Origin: Aphanomyces cochlioides
Taxonomy: Eukaryota > Oomycota > Saprolegniomycetes > Saprolegniales > Verrucalvaceae
Assembly: GCA_019828595.1 (NCBI GenBank)
Contig: JAHQRK010000001.1
Coordinates: 3,410,001 to 3,474,000, forward strand
Reading direction: 5' to 3'
Length of the DNA: 64,000 bases
Within the stretch, counting starts at the first letter, position 1. Every line of letters starts with the position of its first letter. Made by a program: the position numbers and the translations under genes. The notes below the pieces were generated by a model that worked only from the letters and a program-made list of their open reading frames with translations, was not told the DNA's origin and made no database searches. Positions 4,001-31,798 of the stretch are shown here, piece after piece.

Positions 4001-7000
4001 ACTGAAATTTTGTTTGATTTGAGCTCAATATGGCTATTGGCAGCATCAAGATCTGCTTGTAGCCTGTTCAATTCAAAGTTCAAATGAGATATTTCACTCC
4101 TTGCGTTCGTAATTTCGGTTTCCAAACGATTAATTTTGTGAGAGGATTCAGAGTTAATCCGATCAAGATCCATCGAAAGTTGCATATTTTGGGACTTTAG
4201 TGCCAATAATGCTGTTTCGAGGTCCTAGTGGCATATGTTTAATGAAGCAAGTCATTCATGGTGCTTACAGTAAGTGCTTTCGATTTTTGGTCATGATCCT
4301 CGGCGGACTTTTGTAAACGGGCTTGCAAAGTTTCCACTTGGGCAGTCAGCTCAGATATTTTACTACTACTTTCTCTAGCATGGTTGGACAATGTTTGCTC
4401 ATGCAATTGCTCCATTTCATCCATGCGTCTTAACAAAGACTCGTTTTCGTCCTTCAGCTCAGTATTGTATTCTTCAAGCTCCTACATAAAATGAGCATTT
4501 TCACTAACGAAGTATATACCGAAACTTGGACTGTCTTTAGCCTCAATTCATGTTTCGTGTCGTTGATTTTATTTTGCATTGCGTCCACTTGATCTTTAAG
4601 CTGGTTATTTTGAAGCATGTTTTCCGTTTCAAAGGAACGATAGTTCTCTAATGAGGAAGAAAGTTGTTTTTCAAAGGAATAAAGTTTTTCTTCGAGAATT
4701 CTCCGTGATTCACTCAGTGCTTTGTTGGCTTCTTCAAGGCGAGAGCACTTGACAGCTTGGACTTCACCATCATTTTGGGAGATTCTAAGATGCACTTGCA
4801 GATCTTCAATTTGGCTCGTCAAGTGAGATATTTTAATATTTCTTGTAGAGATTTCTTCCTCAAATATTGATTTCTCCGTTGCAAACGACTCAGCCATAGC
4901 TTGGAATTTAGACTGCTTTTGATCCCAGGTAACCTTTACTGCCTCCAAGGTGTCTATTCTTTCAAGTAATTTCAAGTTTTGTTCGCTCAATTGACTGTTT
5001 TCATCGTTGAGTCGAGTGACATCACGTTCTAGTTCAAGTACGTGCGCTCTTCGGTACATGGCCATGAAGCAAATGTTGACCTTGGTTACAATGCGAATAA
5101 GATCCCAATGAGCGCGAGCCCGAGATTGTTGTCGAATTTTCTTCACGTAGTTGGTAGCCAGCACCCGACGAATCTACGATAAGATTAGGACTCTGTCGAT
5201 GCTATCAAAATTACGTGTGATTGGATTTTTACACAAGCACGTTCTCGACGAACTTTATCGAGAAGAGCAGTAAAAGCGCGTTTAGCAAGATAGGCAATGC
5301 ATGCGGCGCGACCAAGTTTGCGAACATACATTGCACGTTGAAGTGGGCCCAACCAAGTAAGAAGCCATTTGCCGTTTGCCTTCAAATTCTTATGTCTTAG
5401 CAAGACTTGCAGCAAAGTCAGTTTATCTTCAACACTTCGATCAAATGCTGACCTAATTTGTAACTTGCTGAGCAGAGAGTTCCATTTTTTGGAGGCTCGG
5501 TTTTCAGCTCGAATATTCTCCACGCGCTTGCGAGCTAATATTTGTCGGAACCAGCATTGCAAAACAATTGCACGACGTCCTTTACGACAATTCAAGAAAA
5601 TCTTCTCGCACGATCGCAGTACAATAACTTTGGTAGTTGCAGAGATCCAACTTTGCTTCGCTAAGTACGAGACGAGACGTGACTTCAATTCAGCGGGGGG
5701 GAAAGCTGGCGTAACTGCAAGGACAGTGTCAAGCAAATGAATTTTTCCTATCCATGTGATGACCCTACTGTATCTTCACATTCGAGACGTACCGGTCTTA
5801 AAGAACAGGCGAGTATCGCCAAGACGAAAAGCATCCGTGGGAAAGTCAAGTACTTGGCACAGTGCTTGTGTGAATAACCTGTCATTGTCCCGGAATCTTT
5901 GCATAAAAGGTGTTCCCAATAGGTCTGAATAGATGAACACAAGTTCTTCGTAGGAAACACGTGTAGGGAGACCAACTTGCAGCACTTGACAAGCTTGAAT
6001 AGTACCAGAGCATCGCAATTGATCCAAGACACTAGAACGATCAAATATTTTTGCGTCCATTGCAGGATTTGGCTTGATGCATCGGATAAAGTTATTTCGA
6101 GTCGAATCCAGCTCAAGAACCAGCCCTTTCATTTGGTGTGAAAACATCTCAGAAACACTGCCTGGGGGTGTTTTTGACGCCCCATCAAACGAGGATGCAT
6201 TCAAAAGCTTCAAAGTTGATCCAGAAATCAATTCTTTGAACTGAGATGACGCGACATTGTTATTTTTGTCGATGAATCCATCAATGCGGTAACGCACAAT
6301 GCCAGCGTAATGTTTAATACAGAAAGTGTGTTGTGCATCACGAGGATGGGGCACGACGAAGCTAGAAACGGATATGAAGCATAGAACGTGACCACATATT
6401 ACCATGGATGCTTCTTGAAAGTTGTGTGTAAGCGTTCATTGAGTTTGCGGTCGGATGGTCCAGCTAATCGACCCACTGTATTCAAGATAGCCAAAATACC
6501 ATCCCGTCGGTCAGTTATTAGAGATAGACATTCGCGGTTATCGTCATATGAAATGGGTTTTGCCGATTCGATCCGCCTATATATTCGATAAGCACTAAAT
6601 CACGAAGAAAATGAATGGAGCTTACTGTTGAACTACCAATGGTTCATCAGCAGGTTGGGGTAAAAAGGGAAACAATAGCGATGCATTTTGAGGTGCCCAA
6701 ATGTTCTCTGCTTGGTAAAGTTCTTGCTCGGCTTTTAAAATACATTGGTTGAACATGCATTGAAGAGCTTCGTTGGCATAGTTAATGAGCAGTTGTTCAA
6801 AAGAGTTTCGATTCTTTGGTTCGAAATCCTCGAACCCAAAGATATCCAAGACACCAATATATGGCAGTTCATCTTTCATTGCCAAGTTGTACTCCAAGAT
6901 ATCGGCACATTGTAACATTAATGACGAAAATACCTACAGTCACATAATGTCCAAATCGGCATTTCCTTGAATCTACCTGATCGTAGATCATTTTTGCAAC

Positions 7001-8469
7001 GGTATCACGCGAGTATGACGCTTGCTGCACTGTCTTCCCGACAAAGTAGACAGATCCACGTCGTTGAAAGCTGCCTTTAGTGCGCTCGATTTTCTTTTTT
7101 AGCAAAGCATCAAAGAGATCGTCAAGTTTAAGACCTAACATGTCGGCAATAATGTCAATACATGCTTCTTTGTCGTCCTCTCGATGGATGATGGCAGTCA
7201 TGCCTTCGGAGGTGTCTTCCTCGTCGAAGTTCAAATTGCCCAAATGAAGCACACCAGCCACGATACGGAAGAGCTCGTTTGGGTCAATGCCAGCAAAGTT
7301 CAGCGCAGATTTTAATAGTTGAAAATTTGCTCGGTCATCGATAAAGTCACTAGCTGTGCAACCTGAGCGGTTTAAATAATGATATTGGTCCATCCACTCT
7401 TCACTGTTTGATGATCCAAATTTTGACTTTACGTAAGGATTCGGAACTAGCTTCAACTCTTCCAGTAGGGGGGCATCACCAGAACGCAGCACTTCATAAA
7501 ACACATGGAAATTCCGCTCTCCTTCGGGGGGATGCACAACGCGGGATGTCTCCAGCAAATATGTATCAATGGATGCACCAGTCAGATGCAAAGCAGTGCT
7601 TTTAATATCTTCATCTGGAGAGAATTGAAGACGCATATATTTTCCAAATCGACTAGAGTTGTGATTGCGATGTGTCTTGGCATTTCCAAATGACTCGAGA
7701 ATTGGAATAGTTTCCATCAAGCGTTCGCCAAGTGCATGTTCGTGCTCACGAATTTCTTCGTCTTGATTTGACGTTGATCGAGAGAGTTTTGCGGCACTTC
7801 CACCCGTAAAGCTGGAACGTTCGGTAAGGAAGTCCAAAATAATTTTGGACGTCTCAGTCTTTCCGGAACCACTTTCGCCACTGATGATAATGGATTGGTT
7901 CTGTTTAACAGTGCGCAATTGCCGGTATGCATTCTAGAAAAAGTTGAGTACAGCCAATGGCGCAACAGTGTACCTCGGCAACATTGTATGGATGTGGTGG
8001 AGATTTGTCAAGGGATTGAGTGACGAACATCTTCTTCTCGAGTTTCTTGAGATATCGTAAAGGATTGACGGCAATTAAGACGTTTGACATTGATGTGTAT
8101 GGTTGTCGATCGTCAGGAATCCATCGATCGTACAGATTTTTCACCAGCGCTGCTTCGTGTAGGTATCGTAGGGACGTCATGTCGGGATATGTGCTAGATC
8201 ATTTCCTCAGTGTGTGAAGCGAGGGTTTAAACTTACGTAAATAAAGGGTTTGCGGGGCAAATTGTCATCGTGTTGAAGTCCAACTGGACCGTTCGATTCG
8301 GCATTCGACTCCCTGAGCATTCATCAATCAATGCACACATACCAGTCATCTTGGTCGAGTCGAAGTTCATGAGCTTGACAAGCACCCAATCCTTGGACCC
8401 ATCGTTGTCTTTCTTCCAGTAGAGATCACCGACGCGGTAAGCACTCTCAACTCCAGGGTCGTCGGACAT
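1027..8469 (-). CDS. Unconventional myosin heavy chain with long coiled-coil tail (multi-exon)
   Basis: Actin-based ATP-driven motor. The ATG at 8469 opens a short SH3-like N-terminal piece (about 78 residues). It is followed by the motor: P-loop [12 protein letters not shown] near 7,870, switch [21 protein letters not shown] near 7,660, and switch [10 protein letters not shown] near 6,840. The converter/neck lies near 5,700-5,200 and contains basic IQ-like stretches. From about 5,160 to 1,350 the protein is almost pure coiled coil, in some ten exons of roughly 70-85 codons separated by about 40-50 bp introns. The last exon ends with a short [17 protein letters not shown] segment that also closes the paralogue at 10,110. 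I estimate about 2,100 residues. The stop at 1027 overlaps a possible donor (TTG|GTAACT), so a further 3' exon is possible. The myosin class cannot be assigned by eye; no FYVE, PH, MyTH4 or FERM domain is visible. Confidence 0.88.
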
Positions 8470-23953: not shown

Positions 23954-24026
23954 CTCCCACTGCGGGGCTCGAACCCGCGACCACAGGATTAAAAGTCCTG
24001 CGCTCTACCGACTGAGCTAAACGGGA
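23954..24026 (-). tRNA. tRNA-Lys (anticodon UUU)
   Basis: 73 nt without intron. The acceptor stem TCCCGTT pairs with AGTGGGA (two wobbles). The D arm is GCTC/GAGC, with box A TAGCTCAGTCGG. The anticodon stem CAGGA/TCCTG holds the loop CTTTTAA, giving anticodon TTT. The T arm GCGGG/CCCGC holds TTCGAGC, which contains box B GGTTCGAGCCC. The discriminator base is G and there is no encoded CCA. The gene appears intact. Its first 14 nt are duplicated twice more to the right by retrotransposon insertions, which abut its 5' end. Confidence 0.96.
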
Positions 24027-24027
24027 A
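24013..24027. repeat. Target-site duplication, copy 1 (tRNA-Lys nt 1-14)
   Basis: TGAGCTAAACGGGAA on the plus strand is the complement of tRNA-Lys nt 1-14 plus one upstream base. This copy belongs to the intact tRNA gene and abuts the first base of the U6 sequence. Confidence 0.9.
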
Positions 24028-24050
24028 GGAACCCTTCGGGGTCATCCGTA

Positions 24051-24081
<31 letters not shown>

Positions 24082-24131
24082 GGCCCCTGCGCAAGGATGA
24101 CACGCATAAATCGAGAAGTATCGCACTTTTT
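24028..24131 (+). ncRNA. U6 spliceosomal snRNA sequence (probable retrocopy in a LINE chimera)
   Basis: Full-length U6. The 5' stem-loop is formed around CCCTTCGGG. The invariant ACAGAGA box is in GATACAGAGAAGATTAGCAT. The U4-pairing and ISL region reads GGCCCCTGCGCAAGGATGAC, and the 3' part ends in five T. It is colinear with plant and human U6 across the core. It begins exactly at the target-site duplication and its T-run runs directly into LINE coding sequence. It is therefore best explained as a U6 RNA copied onto the end of a LINE cDNA rather than a native gene. It could still be transcribed if a promoter lies in the adjacent tRNA gene. Confidence 0.9.
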
Positions 24132-24677
24132 CTTGGCGATGCTTCGGTGTCAATTTCGATTGGACTGCCATCACCAACATCGACCGCTTTCAAGTCAACG
24201 AACGCGGTAGCCAGCTTCAAGACATACTGTTTGTGCTCTGGGCTCTTCTGTGTGCTTCCAACCTTCACTATATTTGGACAACGCACAACGCCGCCAAGTT
24301 CGAATCGAAGAAGCCGCCTCCGCCAGAAATTTGGCAAGAAGTCAGCTTCATCCGATGGCATGCATCGATCCGCAGATGGCTTCGCCTCCAAGAAGTTGAC
24401 AGCCCTCAACGAGTGGAAGCAATATCAGCAATCAATACTTTGCATAGACAACCTGTCTATCGCCCACTGGTAGCCAAGTACCCGACTTTGCTCGCGCTCC
24501 AACCTTCAGCCCCAAATTAACAAGCCCCAAGTATTTATTCAACAAGTCAAAAATCGCTGTACTCCAAAGCCCAAAGTAGAAAATCTGCTGAAGCATTTGG
24601 AAGTGGGATGAGCCGTTAGTAGGCAATATTAGTATTAGTAGATATTGAAAGTCTATTAATATACCTCCCCATTGCAG
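24028..24677 (+). mobile_element. U6::LINE chimeric retrocopy (5'-truncated LINE)
   Basis: Insertion unit bounded by perfect 15-bp duplications (24013-24027 and 24678-24692). Its 5' part is full-length U6 (24028-24131). From about 24134 the frame reads [10 protein letters not shown]...[10 protein letters not shown]...HNAAKFESK. This aligns with the C-terminus of the full-length LINE to its right (WRPFGIPFRW...LWVLLVSSLL...RNRTKFEGK), then stops at TAA near 24,519. A 3' tail of about 160 nt ends CCTCCCCATTGCAG, resembling the CCCCGATTGTCAT end of the second element. There is no poly(A). Protein identity between the two copies is only moderate, so they are different subfamilies. Confidence 0.85.
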
Positions 24678-24692
24678 TGAGCTAAACGGGAA
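24678..24692. repeat. Target-site duplication, copy 2 (tRNA-Lys nt 1-14)
   Basis: A perfect 15-bp copy of 24013-24027 (TGAGCTAAACGGGAA). It separates the U6::LINE chimera from the full-length LINE and serves as the right duplication of the first element and the left of the second. Confidence 0.9.
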
Positions 24693-24868
24693 CTCTTAAA
24701 TTGCTTTTTGTACCCCACAAGTCAATTCTGGACCAACCAGAAGCTTCGACTCTTTCACAAGAACCCTTTCTCACGCGTGACCTACGTTGCTTACGTCTTG
24801 CCTGTCCCGCACCCACCGCACCCATCGAATTTTTCAACATTTGTAACGTTTCGTCGACTTTGCAAGCC

Positions 24869-27354
24869 ATGACGAACCCAACTCATTTGAAGAATAGCGA
24901 CCAAGAACCCATTACTGCCGCCGAGCACGCCCACCGTGACCTGATCGACGGAGTTGAAGTCTCTGCTGGAGGGGGATCATGTATTAGAGTTGGCGCTGAT
25001 ACACCATCCCTCGTTGCCTCCCTTGGTGTTGGCACTAGTGAGACTTCCTCGACTGAAAAGGTTGCCGATCCATCGAGCCCATTGACACTCCCTCAGGATG
25101 GGAAGGTTCACTAGTCGACTTTTGTCGGCTGGGAGATGAGCCTGAGGCAGCTGTTGATGACGTTCAAGGCCTTGACTTTGCCCCCCACGGTGCTTTCACT
25201 GGATTGCATGGAGATCATCTCAGTACTCCGGGAAAAGATGTGTCTCGCAGTTCTCGAAACGTTAGCACTGAGCCTGGGAATGTTCAGCGGCGGATCAGTT
25301 CTGAGAAAGAAATTTCTCAAGAACAAGGTGATAGCATTACTCTCGACCAACCACGCGAAAATGCACCCACTACAACTGGCGATGGCGACACGCACCCGTC
25401 CAAGACAAATCCTGCATCCAATCAATCGACTTGGACCTTTGCCGATGCTGTCAAGAACGCGAATGCTGCGAACGGCAAAGCGAAAATCGAAACTGTTTTC
25501 GCTCGACCCTCACGTGAGAAACTTCTCAAGCTCATTGAAATGGCCGACGATGATACGTGCGATGACGATGCTATGCTTGAAGCCATGGATGACGCCATTC
25601 CGTACCCCCAGAAGACTGCTGTTACACACTTTTGGGTTGAGACGGGATCCGATTTGGCTGCACAATCGAACGACAAGATCATTTCATCCATTTTCTCGGA
25701 AAATGATTCAGCCACCTGGAGCAAAATTTTACCCGATTTCGTCCAAGTGAACAAGACCAGAGGCGGCGACCTGGTGATACATGTTGCTACAGAATCTGCG
25801 AAGACAGCGATGTCGGAACAAAAGATTACCATATTTGGGAATCAATATGGTGTTGCGCCTCCCCGCGCTCCTCGTTCCTCTCGAGGTGGTGGTTTTCAAG
25901 GTCCATCGAACTCCATCCACGACCACTATTTCATCGACATCATTGGAATACCCTCGAATTTTGATTCCAAGAAATTGATCCGTTTGCTTCGACGATTCAA
26001 GACGAGTCCAATTTTTCAAGGCTACAAGACCACTGTTCGAGGAGGTGCTTGTCACGGAAACATTTGGCGTGTCTATTTTCGAGCAAGTGATATGCCTGTC
26101 CCACTTACGATCAACCGACATCCTGTGGACCAAATCAAACTGGATGATATCTACTACGCTGTGTTCGCAAAGAATTACGTCAAGTCATCGGTTGCGCGTG
26201 AGAACAACCGCTCCGCGCATTGCCTTGATTTGGATTGGATCGAAGAATCTGCACAAGGTCCGCCTGAAGCAAATGGCGATTCAAATACAACCAACATGAA
26301 GAAGGCCAAAACGGGCAAAGTTATTGACCTGAGCGAAGTCAATCCTGGCACAAATGAGCTGCAAAATGAACAAGAATCAGTGGAGCAGCCTTTGCAAGAC
26401 GATCCCATGGGAGCACTGTTTGACTCATCCAAGACCAACAACAATCTCATTCAAAACGAACCACCAAGTGAACAGGCGAGAGCCTCGAACTCATTTTTGA
26501 AGCCCAAGAAGACTAGCAAGCGCAAACAAGAGGATTTGGCCAAGTCTTGGGCGTCTGACAACTTGGTCGATCACTTGAGAGACCTTCAACTCAAAACACT
26601 TCTCGTCAAGTTCAGCGATCCCCAACGCCAAGCATATCACGTGACGATTGGCGATATCCCTCATTTGACGTCAAGCGATCTCTCCACGTCTATCAAGAGA
26701 ACTCAAACCAAGGACGGACGACTGGATTGGCACCCGGACAACCTTTCTCTCAAAGAGATTGTGGATCTTTTGGCGCAGCATGCTGTCCAAAGCGATGACC
26801 TCGTGGACAATGTGACACGACGCGAAAGATATGCGGCGATACCATTTGCAGAGCCTCTCGAAGCTTGGCTAAACGAAGGCAAAATCGACGAACTCTGGCA
26901 ATGGGCCTCTGTGAATACATTGACGGCGAATTTTCATATCACCGATCTCAACACCACCAAGCCAGCAGCCTTTCAAACGTTTGTACGGCTCCATACTTGG
27001 CATCGGTGGATTTCGGCGACTACAGCACCAGAGGCAATGTCATTTGCTGAAGGTTTCAAGCACGTTTTTGGTTGTTTACCCACAGTTGAGGACCTAAACA
27101 ACTTTCCGATGGATGCAGCTTTTGCCGAAACATTGGAGTTGCCCGAAGGCCTCTCTTTCCTTGGAGTTGAAGACGCATTATCAGCACTGGAAGTCTGGCT
27201 ATCCTTGCAAGCGAGAGACATGCTGGACAAAGATGCTTGGTTGATCAGCATCACGAAACGCCCTGTCATCCCGCTTCCCACACATGCTGGCTCACGGCTC
27301 TTCTCGGCGGACACCCTGTGGAATGTTTACACTCAACATTTGGCCATGTCATGA
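24869..27354 (+). pseudogene. LINE ORF1 (RNA-binding gag-like protein), frameshifted
   Basis: The ATG at 24869 (MTNPTHLKNSDQEP) opens a frame that stops at the TAG ending at 25114. Coding resumes in another frame before 25134 (DEPEAAVDDVQGLDFAPHGA) and runs to the TGA at 27352-27354. The central part (HDHYFIDIIGIPSNFDSKKL through WRVYFRASDMPVPL) looks like an RRM-type fold, the usual RNA-binding module of many LINE ORF1 proteins. No CCHC knuckle is visible here. The C-terminal 250 residues are acidic/helical and unrecognised. The frameshift around 25,060-25,115 makes it a pseudogene unless it is a sequencing error. Confidence 0.75.
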
Positions 27355-27521
27355 TGGCTAACCTGGCACACGCCCTCCCTGGCCTCACTACGTCCGTGTT
27401 GCTCGAGTTGCAGAAGCTTGGGTTTCGCTACTCTGAACAACGCACGGCTATGTTCAAGCAATACTTGATCGAAGACAAGCCACACTGCCAACTGCAGCTA
27501 GGCTTGACCCTCCACTATTAA
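27351..27521 (+). CDS. Small ORF bridging LINE ORF1 and ORF2
   Basis: 57 codons starting in the ATGATG that overlaps the ORF1 stop (TGA 27352-27354) and ending TAA 12 nt before the ORF2 ATG at 27533. The sequence (MANLAHALPGLTTSVLLELQ) has no known motif. The overlap suggests coupled termination-reinitiation, as described for some insect LINEs. It could instead be a chance frame. Confidence 0.35.
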   Translation: MMANLAHALPGLTTSVLLELQKLGFRYSEQRTAMFKQYLIEDKPHCQLQLGLTLHY

Positions 27522-27532
27522 CCAAGTTCTCC

Positions 27533-30500
27533 ATGGTTACCCCTGCAGCTCGTTCACGAAGCCCACCTCTGTCTGGTGTTTCTCGCAGTACCATCCCTGG
27601 CTCCGACACTCAAGAATTGCAAATCTTGACAGCCAACATCAACGGCTTGAAAGATAACGGCCACAAACTTGCCGAAGGCTTGCTCAAGCATCACAACGTT
27701 GTGGCACTCCAAGAAACGAAGATAGCTCATCGCTTCCAATACGACACCTTTCGTTTCCATCTTGATCATGCCCTGGGAGTTGGCAACTACTTCTTGGCTA
27801 CCAACGATCAACGGCACACTCAAGACTCCTCTGAGCAACATCGCAGCAGTGGCGTCATGATGTTATTTTACAAGGAGACCCCTGGCTTTGCGCGTCTCGT
27901 ACACAACAAGGCTCTGGATATCCCCAACAAGTACATGGTTGTTCACACTTGGTGGGAAGATACTCCTGTGTTTTTTCACAACGTATATGCGCCTGTTCAA
28001 AATCAAGAGCGAGAAGCCTTTTTTGATGCACTGCCTCGAGATTTCCCAGTCAACGCGCAACACATCGTTATGGGCGACTTCAACCTACCACTCCAGCGTG
28101 AATTGGATGCGATGGTTCCATCCTCATGTCATCACACTGGCCGATCCCAATGCTCTCAATGGCTCGAGGCCTTGCATGTCGTGGATGCTTGGCGTCTACA
28201 CAATCCATCAACCCGAGTATTCTCCTCTCCTCATGGACGAAATCGCCTCGACTATATCTTTATGGATGAAGACCTTATGCGCACGGCATATCATCAATCG
28301 ACGTACTTTCGTTCCCCGGAAATTGTCGAGCACATGTGCCACAGAGTTATTCTGCAACCGGTGTCTCAACCCAAGCGCCGTGCCTATTGAAAACTACCGA
28401 AGGAGCTTCTCCAAGTACCCGAAGTGGTCGAAACCATTGTCGCTGAAGCGAAACAACTTCTTCCAGTGCTCCGTCAGGCCAACAATCCTGGGGTTGTCTG
28501 GGCTGGATGGAAAAAGCAAGCCAAAAAGTTTTTCCAAGAGTATCATGTGGAGCATCTATTGGCAAAGACACGCGTTTCAGACTTGGCCAAACGAGAACTG
28601 TTACGTTCACAGCAAGCGTTCAATGCGGGACGTTTGCCGCTTCAAGCCTTGGAACAAGCTCAAGCCAAGTATGACGAGACGATGTCCGAGTGGAAGTCCT
28701 ACCAAAATGACATCAACTTCGATTTTCACGCGACCAAGAATGAAACTTCTACAGCGCACTTCTTTCGTCCTCCAAAGAAAGTTCTGTACAACGTGCCCAT
28801 CGTGGAAGTTCAAGACGCTGACGGCACAGTCTCGACATGTCCTCAAGTCATCCATGATGTGTTTCATGCAAAATGGTCTGCCGTGATGTGCGAAAACGAC
28901 TTTCAAGCGCCGAACCGTGCCAGTCGACGCCGATTCGTACGGCTATTGCAAAAACGTTTGACGGACGAACAACGCGATTCCCTTGACAGCCCAATCACAA
29001 CCTATGAACTTGCACAAGCCATCAAGACCATGGCTCCACACAAGTCTCCAGGAATGGATGGATTCCCTGCGGCCTTTTACCAATTGGAGGCGGATCTATT
29101 TGCCGAGATACTTTGCTTGGTCTTCAAGTATTAACTTTCACGTGGCGAGTTGCTTGGCATTCAACGACGTTCTGCCGTGTCCTTGCTCTTCAAAGGTGGT
29201 GACAGAAGCAACCCTGGGAATTATCGACCAATTGCTTTGATCCCAGTTGAAGTCAAAATTCTCACAAGGGCACTTGCTTGTCGTTTGCGTGATCTGCTGC
29301 CTGCCCTGATCCATCCGATTCAAACAGGATTCGTGGCTGGCAGGCGCATTCATGACCACATCATCTTTCTCAAGGACCTTCAACACAAGTGTACTCTGGA
29401 CGACATCGAAGGATACGCTATGTTTCTGCTTTGAAAAAGCGTATGATCGCGTCAATTGGGATTTCATGTACGACGTTTTGGAAGCATTCAACTTCGGTCC
29501 TGTGTTCATCAGCTGGATCAAGTTGATGTACCATAGTCCCATCATCCACTTGGTCATCAACGGCGAGTCGAGCCATTTACCCCACGCGTGGAGTCAAGCA
29601 AGGGGATCCTTTGTCGGCGCTGTTGTTTGTCCTCTCAGTGGAACCTCTGAGTCAGCTACTGCGCAATCACGAAGAATACAGCCTTCCTTTCTCTGAGGAG
29701 CTCTTTGCCATGGCAATGTTCTTTGCTGATGACACAACATTGGTTTCGTCCTCCCTTGAAGACTTGGAACGACAACTGGAGCTTGTCCAAGAATTTTGTA
29801 CTCAGTCAGGTGCAAAACTTAACGTGGGCAAGTGCAAAGTTCTCACGCTGAATGGAAACCAAGACGTACCTCGACATCCAAGACTCTCCATGGTTGCCTC
29901 GGGTACTCCGACAAAGTACTTGGGGATATTGTTTGGCCACCGTTTATCCGACCAAGTACAAATCAATGCGCTTTCCGACTCGTTCTATCAGTCTTTTATC
30001 ACGTGGGGCTGTCGAGCAAGAACGCTGCGAGGTCGACGGCTACTTGCCAACACCATGATGTTGTCCAAGCTCTGGCACTACACAGCTGTCATCCACATCC
30101 CTGAAGACACGGTCGCCAAGTGGCAGTCCATGGTGTACAAGTTCATCTTGACAAGAAAGCGACAAGGAAGACAAACACATGTCCTTGATCAATCTGGCGT
30201 GGCGTATCATCCCAGCCTGGGTCTCAGGATTCCGCATATTGCGTCAAGAATTCGTGCTCAACGTGTTCAGCGACTTCATTCCTTGTTCAGACCGACAAAG
30301 AAGAACCATCGTTATGGTCTGTTCTCCCGAAGCAGCTCTTTCGAAGGTGCATGGAGCCGTTCGCAAGATACTCGTCGTGGGACTGCCTCATGTATCATCC
30401 CAACCACAACACAAATCACATGCGACTTGAAGTACTCCCTTTGTTGTGGCGGAAAATCTGGGCCAACTGGCATCGTATCCCCCTTACGCGCAAATGTCCT

Positions 30501-31628
30501 GAAACGCCGACACAATCTCAGCTCCTTACCATGTCTGTTTGGCTGCAAATTCATCCGCTGTTTTTGGTTCCTGGTTCCAATGGACCAACCTCGCTTGCTG
30601 TTGCCCTCAAACATCATCGTCCCTTCTACAAGTTCCTCGCCCAAGAAGGCTTGCATTGCTTGGACAATTTCGTCACCACACAACGCGTGTGGCCCTCCTA
30701 TGAAGAATTCAAGTTGCAAATGGAGCCTTACGTTTGGCGGTTCCCTGGCGATGATTTTCCATGCGTGTTTCGCCATTTGTACTCCCTGCTTTCACTCATT
30801 GCGACCACTGTATGGCAAGTACTGGGTATCCCTCTCGTGGAAGCTGTGCCTCCCAATCGTGAAGTTCAAATCCCCGTCGGACAAGTTTGGAAGAATGTCT
30901 TTGTTCCTTTTCAACAATGGCCGCGCAAGTACATCCGATCGATTTGCTTTTGCGCGCCACTACTCACCAAACAGCACCCCTTGTCGAGCGATTCAAGAAA
31001 CAATGATTTGGCGATCAAGAAATACATGAACAAGACGGTGAAACCTTTGATGCGATATCCAACTCCTGTTCAAGCCGATGTGTGGTGGCGAATCTTGTTT
31101 CGGATGCTACCCGTCAACTCTCGCTTCTTTTTCCTTCAAGACACCAACCCTAGCATTATCGAATGCTCCTTTCCTGGTTGCTTAGCCGTCGAAACGATAC
31201 AACACATCCTGTTCGACTGCAAGTTTGTCAAGCCTGTGTGGAATTGGCATCAAGCAGCGTGGCGGCCGTTTGGTATTCCATTTAGATGGAATACGATTAT
31301 CAACCTCGACGAATTCGCGGTTTCTGAAGAATGGGTGTCTCATTTTTCAGTGACTCGTTGTTTGTGGGTCCTTCTCGTTTCATCTTTGCTACGGGACTTT
31401 TGGATTCATCGCAATCGAACCAAGTTTGAAGGCAAAACAGTGCCATACATCCAGGCGGTCAAGGAAGTATCTCTTGTTTCGTGGACCGCAAATATCAGAC
31501 GAATGCTCCGTGATCCTACAATGGACAGTTATGAAGCAATGCAAGTCTCCGAGATAGTCGAAAAACTCAAGTCTCATACCAACTACACTTGGTTTTGGGA
31601 GAAGAACTTGCGAGCGACACTTGTGTAA
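27533..31628 (+). pseudogene. LINE ORF2: APE endonuclease - reverse transcriptase - CCHC finger, disrupted
   Basis: The ATG at 27533 begins an exonuclease-endonuclease-phosphatase domain: LTANINGLKDN, ALQETKI, VMGDFNLPL and the terminal NRLDYIFMDED. The RT follows with MAPHKSPGMDGFPAAFYQ, NYRPIALIPV, QTGFVAGRRIHDHI, DFEKAYDRVNW-like, VKQGDPLSALLFVLSVEPLS and the catalytic FADDTTL. The C-terminus has a zinc finger C-x4-C-x7-H-x4-C in IECSFPGCLAVETIQHILFDC. Damage seen: TGA at 28388-28390 (Trp-like position), TAA ending at 29134, and frame changes near 29,430, near 29,590 and near 30,310. The endonuclease catalytic residues appear present. The family clade is not resolvable by eye. Confidence 0.88.
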
Positions 31629-31784
31629 AGAAGTCTCAAGATTTCAAGACAATGCAAGAGCTCAATCGAACTCACGCAACGATTCAAGTGGCTTTCGAGT
31701 AGAACTTAGTAGTCCTTGTTCCCCATTGGATCGTCTAGGCAAATATTTATAGGGGTTAAAGGTCAAATATACCCCGATTGTCAT

Positions 31785-31798
31785 TGAGCTAAACGGGA
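31785..31798. repeat. Target-site duplication, copy 3 (tRNA-Lys nt 1-14)
   Basis: TGAGCTAAACGGGA, a perfect 14-bp match to copies 1 and 2, followed by TTGATATATG. It marks the right end of the array; no other tRNA sequence follows. Confidence 0.88.

Follow-up and report, generated by a model that had tools for sequence, protein, structure and literature searches.

A probable template-switch chimera of U6 snRNA and a tRNA-gene-targeting LINE in an oomycete genome

A U6 snRNA sequence and a truncated LINE lie side by side at a tRNA-Lys gene in the 64-kb stretch of oomycete DNA analysed here (the window). Very probably, as judged from the sequence, they arrived together in a single target-primed insertion, during which a LINE specific for tRNA genes (LINE-A) would have switched template to U6 RNA. 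The unit is bounded by duplicated tRNA bases and is genuine, and its boundaries agree to the base with those given in the initial annotation of this DNA. To this origin we attach a further and much more tentative proposal, namely that the U6 copy may have acquired a promoter through its insertion.

Structure of the U6-LINE unit

The target is an intact tRNA-Lys(TTT) gene on the minus strand (23954..24026; Rfam, 69.7 bits), whose 5' base is 24026 in Rfam and 24027 in ARAGORN (24027-23953), and which is identical at 73/73 positions to a second genomic tRNA-Lys copy (L026). The first copy of the target site duplication (TSD), TGAGCTAAACGGGAA at 24013..24027, consists of nucleotides 1-14 of this tRNA plus one flanking base, in antisense, in agreement with the tRNA origin that the initial annotation had assigned to it. 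As also proposed there, a complete U6 sequence starts at the first base after this TSD (24028, the TSD ending at 24027), its terminal T-run leads directly into the C-terminal coding region of a LINE, and a second, perfect copy of the 15-bp duplication, again TGAGCTAAACGGGAA, follows the LINE 3' end (24678..24692).

The U6 snRNA retrocopy (24028..24131, plus strand) is full-length and ends in T5; the Rfam U6 model (positions 1-105) matches at 24030-24132 with 101.6 bits and an E value of 3e-25. The LINE-A copy (24132..24677, plus strand) is 5'-truncated, and its 546 bp, equivalent to positions 6782-7327 of a 7327-bp copy in locus L037, contain the C-terminal ORF2 coding region and the 3' UTR. 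At the junction, where no microhomology was seen, the U6 T-run is joined to an internal position of LINE-A.

The TSD can be read as 14 or 15 bp, one A at a junction being ambiguous. Its first 14 bases have three matches in the window, all of them exact when up to one mismatch was allowed, against a mean of 0.02 in shuffled sequences, so that these repeats are not due to chance; the third match, at 31785, is the far TSD of another element, LINE-B. One perfect TSD pair surrounds U6 and LINE together, and U6 alone is flanked by no repeat. The unit had been described as inserted in the tRNA-Lys gene, and its position at this gene holds, yet the disruption that such wording implies does not: the unit lies at the 5' edge of the gene, which remains whole because one TSD copy stays attached to the tRNA, the duplication regenerating the gene.

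LINE-B (24692..31784, plus strand), recognised by its TSD pair and its open frames, is an older element of about 7.1 kb at the same tRNA-Lys; its ORF1 frame spans 25057-27354, and the frames of its ORF2 are broken. Its TSD, TGAGCTAAACGGGA, occurs at 24678-24691 and, as the far copy, at 31785-31798. Because the duplications are nested, the sequence indicates that LINE-B was inserted first and that the U6-LINE-A unit arrived later at the same tRNA-Lys. For the 3' junction of LINE-B, TTGAGC included, the genome has 49 matches, 48 of them exact (up to two mismatches allowed; control, 0), a count that shows many copies at such a site and is no measure of specificity, since the pattern contains the target.

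The U6 copy in the window and the native U6 genes

A nucleotide search of the assembly (76.2 Mb, 94 contigs) found three U6 copies (3/3 candidates scored), all identical at 104/104 positions, so that the alignment of the window U6 to the other genomic copies, proposed in the initial annotation, gave full identity to both. The same three copies were above the cut-off in a covariance search of the best 48 of 4129 candidates; weak U6-like matches at three loci (L004-L006) were rejected as U6, with 29-31 bits against a cut-off of 44. The two native U6 genes (L001 and L003) are both on contig 3, and the 54 nt directly upstream are identical between them. This block is absent from the window U6, which starts at the common GGAACCC, exactly where both native genes start, and ends in five T before the LINE. 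Lacking the native upstream block, and with the common start and the T5 end, the window U6 is thus best regarded as a copy made from RNA.

A different history has to be weighed, in which the tRNA-Lys already had a native U6 gene as its divergent neighbour and the LINE was inserted alongside later. Divergent tRNA-snRNA pairs of this kind are described for trypanosomatids in the available text of PMC4950102. In the window, however, a TSD copy directly adjoins the tRNA on the side of U6 that faces away from the LINE, and this places U6 inside the inserted unit; the window U6 has no native upstream block; and in 12 of the 13 other truncated LINE-A copies read, the LINE follows on a tRNA-edge duplication of the same kind. 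We consider a pre-existing native gene very improbable.

LINE-A is an L1-like element

With its last 548 bp as query, LINE-A has at least 40 copies at 100% identity (rounded) and, besides that of the window, at least 13 copies with the top score (100% over 546 bp), both counts being taken among the best 40 of 226 candidates; from its sequence, LINE-A is evidently young and abundant. The full-length copy in L037, flanked by tRNA-Ile duplications, is 7327 bp long; of its two long open frames, the second, ORF2, comprises 1396 codons. This copy carries no poly(A), and the named close relatives of its ORF2 are oomycete proteins, both as anticipated in the initial annotation. Identity of ORF2 to its relatives is 94% at best, 66-67% for Aphanomyces astaci, 63% for Thraustotheca and 41-46% for Globisporangium.

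Among proteins in the PDB, ORF2 matches human L1 ORF2p (7.3e-57) and R2 proteins (5.9e-25 at best), and part of it matches L1-type endonucleases (4.7e-5). RVT_1 was found by Pfam, the endonuclease model PF03372 scored 19.9 bits, below its cut-off of 24.5, and no RNase H was found in LINE-A by Pfam. The matches to L1 ORF2p and L1 endonuclease, together with RVT_1 and the sub-threshold PF03372, indicate an APE endonuclease and reverse transcriptase of the L1 group.

LINE-A targets tRNA genes

The sequence that follows the LINE-A 3' end was compared at 30 loci, including the window, which were chosen by LINE similarity only (30 of the best 40 of 226 candidates) and are not all independent, several of them having common flanks. 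In 31/31 cases the 3' end is followed by TGAGCTA or TGAGCCA (TGAGCYA), with eight distinct continuations. TGAGCYA is the antisense of the tRNA box A region, and tRNA genes are therefore the target of LINE-A. Across the genome, the LINE-A 3' end with TGAGCYA has 220 matches, and another pattern for the 3' end alone, without the target, has 221, the reversed control giving 0 in each case. All 98 places (98/98) of the no-target pattern within the listed part of the TGAGCYA set occur in both sets; the sets are not nested, as the listed part of the TGAGCYA set also has places missing from the other. The initial annotation had treated the tRNA as an incidental site, which these counts contradict.

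ARAGORN identified tRNA-Lys, -Met, -Ile and -Phe genes directly adjoining some LINE-A copies. In one check of 12 loci it found no tRNA gene at LINE-A in four, two of which (L028 and L053) have a target resembling an intron-bearing tRNA. Head-to-tail LINE-A copies with one duplication between them also occur, as expected if a rebuilt tRNA is hit again. On the strength of its protein matches and insertion sites, LINE-A is assigned to the L1-like elements as a site-specific, tRNA-gene-targeting member.

Two minor features of LINE-A insertions may be added. At the 3' junction in L016, the five nucleotides TGCAG are repeated before TGAGCTA, as if reverse transcription had slipped while starting on the target primer. 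In G000:C34:3905697-3919826, LINE-A 3' ends are alternately about 2.29 and 2.41 kb apart, which suggests a tandemly duplicated block.

Origin of the chimera

Fourteen 5' junctions of truncated LINE-A copies could be read; they are those lying in the fetched loci and not a random sample. U6 is present in one (1/14, the window), the duplication passes straight into the LINE in 12/14, with at most one extra base and with one of them (L063) visible for only 7 bases upstream, and a short tRNA-derived repeat is present in 1/14 (L059). The initial annotation had suggested a search of the assembly for further U6-LINE junctions; apart from the one in the window, none was found among the three U6 copies and the 14 junctions read. 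With one U6 chimera against 221 LINE-A 3' ends, the event is rare. The segment repeated at the LINE 5' junction in L059 is partial and tRNA-Phe-like; insertion may also bring in tRNA-related sequence.

The single TSD pair and the missing native upstream block agree with the initial annotation's reading of the unit as a one-event chimera formed by template switching. The following course of events would account for it. LINE-A would nick the tRNA-Lys gene after TAGCTCA of the sense strand, and target-primed reverse transcription of its own RNA would begin there. After 546 nt, the enzyme would jump to the 3' U-tail of a U6 snRNA, which would be copied through to its 5' end. The second strand would be cut some 14-15 bp away, at the 5' boundary of the tRNA, and the resulting duplication would rebuild the tRNA-Lys gene.

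Two insertions in succession, first of the LINE copy and then of a U6 retrocopy at the LINE 5' junction, might leave a similar arrangement, and sequential events have been considered for some mammalian copies in the accessible text of PMC4476161. The U6 retrocopy would, however, have had to land exactly between the TSD and the LINE, ending exactly at its U-run, and no duplication flanks U6 by itself; we give such a succession hardly any weight. No more credible is an assembly artefact that joined a U6 gene, the tRNA and a LINE. Mis-joins are conceivable with near-identical copies and 221 occurrences of the LINE 3' end in the assembly, but perfect duplications of the local tRNA stand on both sides of the unit, and the U6-LINE junction coincides with no element end and does not correspond to sequence beside the native U6 genes. 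A single insertion with a template switch thus stays our strongly preferred explanation.

Comparison with known elements

Chimeras of U6 with LINEs are reportedly known in vertebrates from the work of Buzdin in 2002. Template switching from LINE RNA to U6 is described as general for LINEs by Doucet (2015, PMC4476161), and U6/L1, U6/L2 and U6/RTE chimeras are known in vertebrates (Doucet 2015, PMC4476161; PMC13174262); according to the portions available of a 2026 study, U6 in L1 chimeras is consistently full-length and in sense orientation (PMC13174262). The window unit resembles these chimeras in that a full-length, sense U6 lies 5' of a 5'-truncated LINE and is joined to it at the U6 3' end, with one enclosing TSD pair and a U6 derived from RNA. 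It differs from them in its oomycete host, in a LINE without poly(A), in the tRNA-gene target and in the reversed box B supplied there.

In the fungus Magnaporthe, MINE (WEIRD-MGL) comprises LINE chimeras with another RNA (PMC2104539, 2007). As in the window, a non-animal LINE would have switched template to a small cellular RNA, with direct repeats of 10-20 bp; unlike in the window, the partner is the unknown WEIRD RNA and not U6, and tRNA is unmentioned in the available text of PMC2104539. The initial annotation took the window chimera to imply, as something new, that switching to U6 is an old or convergent property of LINE reverse transcriptases, an implication that is not new given that U6 switching was already described as general (PMC4476161) and that fungal LINE chimeras are known (PMC2104539).

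Other non-LTR elements also target tRNA genes (PMC5911963, PMC5006619, PMC4640811, PMC3706591; statements here follow the parts of these papers that were available). They include TRE5 and TRE3 of Dictyostelium, NLTR-A of D. purpureum, inserted 2-6 bp upstream of tRNA genes, planarian LIN15 and LIN25 at tRNA-Arg and tRNA-Glu, and zebrafish Dewa in a tRNA-Leu spacer. Like LINE-A, the TRE elements and NLTR-A are L1-group elements with APE endonuclease and reverse transcriptase; TRE5 and NLTR-A insert on the 5' side of the tRNA, TRE5 in the opposite orientation to it, as LINE-A does. Unlike all of these, LINE-A has a fixed site, where the cut probably falls within the conserved TAGCTCA, and across many different tRNA genes it duplicates roughly the first 14-15 bp. 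An RNase H is present in NLTR-A, whereas none was found by Pfam in LINE-A.

Among the open-licence papers listed, which can give no proof of absence, we found no oomycete U6-LINE chimera, no tRNA-gene-specific oomycete LINE and no stramenopile U6 promoter with a reversed box B; nor did these papers yield a report that combines a U6 chimera, tRNA targeting and promoter features. The chimera alone is of a known kind, and the novelty is the site-specific, tRNA-targeting partner and the possible capture of a promoter. With the window unit, the LINEs known to switch to U6 would include a site-specific one from a stramenopile.

A reversed box B upstream of U6

As a rule, a retrocopy of a Pol III RNA is dead from the outset, its promoter having been left behind. 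Insertion at Pol III genes could allow a LINE to overcome this barrier: since tRNA 5' ends are where LINE-A inserts, a promoterless U6 would gain a reversed box B at near-native spacing and may be transcribed.

Boxes were scored over 10 positions against the box B consensus, which we take to be GGTTCGANTCC; the box A consensus is likewise our assumption. A reversed box B is present upstream of the two native U6 genes and two SRP RNA genes, the 11-mers starting at -60, -60, -57 and -57 and matching 10, 8, 8 and 7 of 10 positions, where the SRP starts, like that of U6atac below, are Rfam model boundaries or derived from them and not mapped ends. After box B, these native U6 and SRP genes have CCAATTG or CCAACTG, followed in the two U6 genes and one SRP gene by ATGACTGG. 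A motif built from the four genes has 25 matches in the genome (up to one mismatch), against one for the reversed control. Among them is a new, exact match before a U6atac gene (77.8 bits), with the box 11-mer at -59 (7/10), which is an independent confirmation of the shared motif. For the RNase MRP gene, no reversed box B reached 8/10, which counts against generality; the box of one SRP gene (L071), at 7/10, is also below this threshold. The motif points to a reversed-box-B promoter common to U6, U6atac and SRP genes in this oomycete.

The window U6 has the box B of the tRNA-Lys (GGTTCGAGCCC, 23965..23975, minus strand), reversed relative to U6 and thus in the native orientation, at -63 to -53 from the U6 start. 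It matches 9/10 positions and starts 3-6 bp farther away than the native boxes (-63 versus -57 to -60); the tRNA box A is at about -9 to -20. In the 64 kb of the window, this strand holds three box B matches as good as this one and the other strand none, so that a random site would rarely offer such a box at this distance. Upstream of the LINE-A insertion point, the best reversed box B starts at -59 to -63 in 7/9 copies measured, including the window, and this geometry is thus a general result of LINE-A targeting; in two of the seven, at tRNA-Met, the box reaches only 7/10. In the other 2/9 copies, both with an intron-like tRNA, it starts at -98/-99.

Whether the U6 copy works is a matter of function only and does not compete with its origin by a single insertion. 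We think it fairly probable that it is a dead pseudogene lacking the second promoter element: the native CCAATTG...ATGACTGG block is absent upstream of it, its box B is 3-6 bp off, and most if not all retrotransposed snRNA copies are non-functional through lost cis elements, according to the available text of Doucet (PMC4476161). Against this, the U6 body is intact (104/104) with its T5 end, and the tRNA's own box B stands in native orientation near the native spacing. The window U6 is too young for sequence decay to tell whether it functions. That it is transcribed as a working gene we hold to be possible, on balance doubtful. A shade more doubtful still is the wider proposal that the combination of targeting and template switching gives rise to Pol III retrogenes equipped with a promoter from the moment of insertion, the window U6 being a new working U6 gene.

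According to the available text of PMC4950102, trypanosomatid snRNA genes use the boxes of a tRNA, or of a tRNA-like sequence, that lies divergently upstream, box A being about 104 bp distant. The window is like these promoters in having a divergent tRNA upstream of an snRNA and a reversed box B, and unlike them in its distances, box A lying about 9-20 bp upstream and box B at -63. If promoter capture by this route were true, it would offer a testable route by which new snRNA genes could arise, as well as divergent tRNA-snRNA pairs like those of trypanosomatids. In its boldest form, the same doubtful proposal would have the native reversed-box-B promoters of this lineage arise from earlier events of this kind. 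Native U6 promoters were considered as decayed tRNAs: a lax Rfam search (E up to 10) around L001 and L003, the two native U6 genes, gave no trace of a tRNA, which leaves box B as what this idea draws on.

Other sequences were seen behind the motif. A CCAATTC variant is present in 8 of its 25 matches, four of which were read. At L085, L087, L088 and L089 the motif is followed by a dispersed, RNA-like family of very roughly 150 nt that ends in a T-run, after which the flanks diverge; these sequences have no Rfam match. The sequences behind the motif at L074, L078, L079, L081, L083, L084 and L086, likewise without Rfam matches, are of other kinds, and some have in common GGGAAACCTGG (on either strand) or GTACGNAGGACGTAAGGTC.
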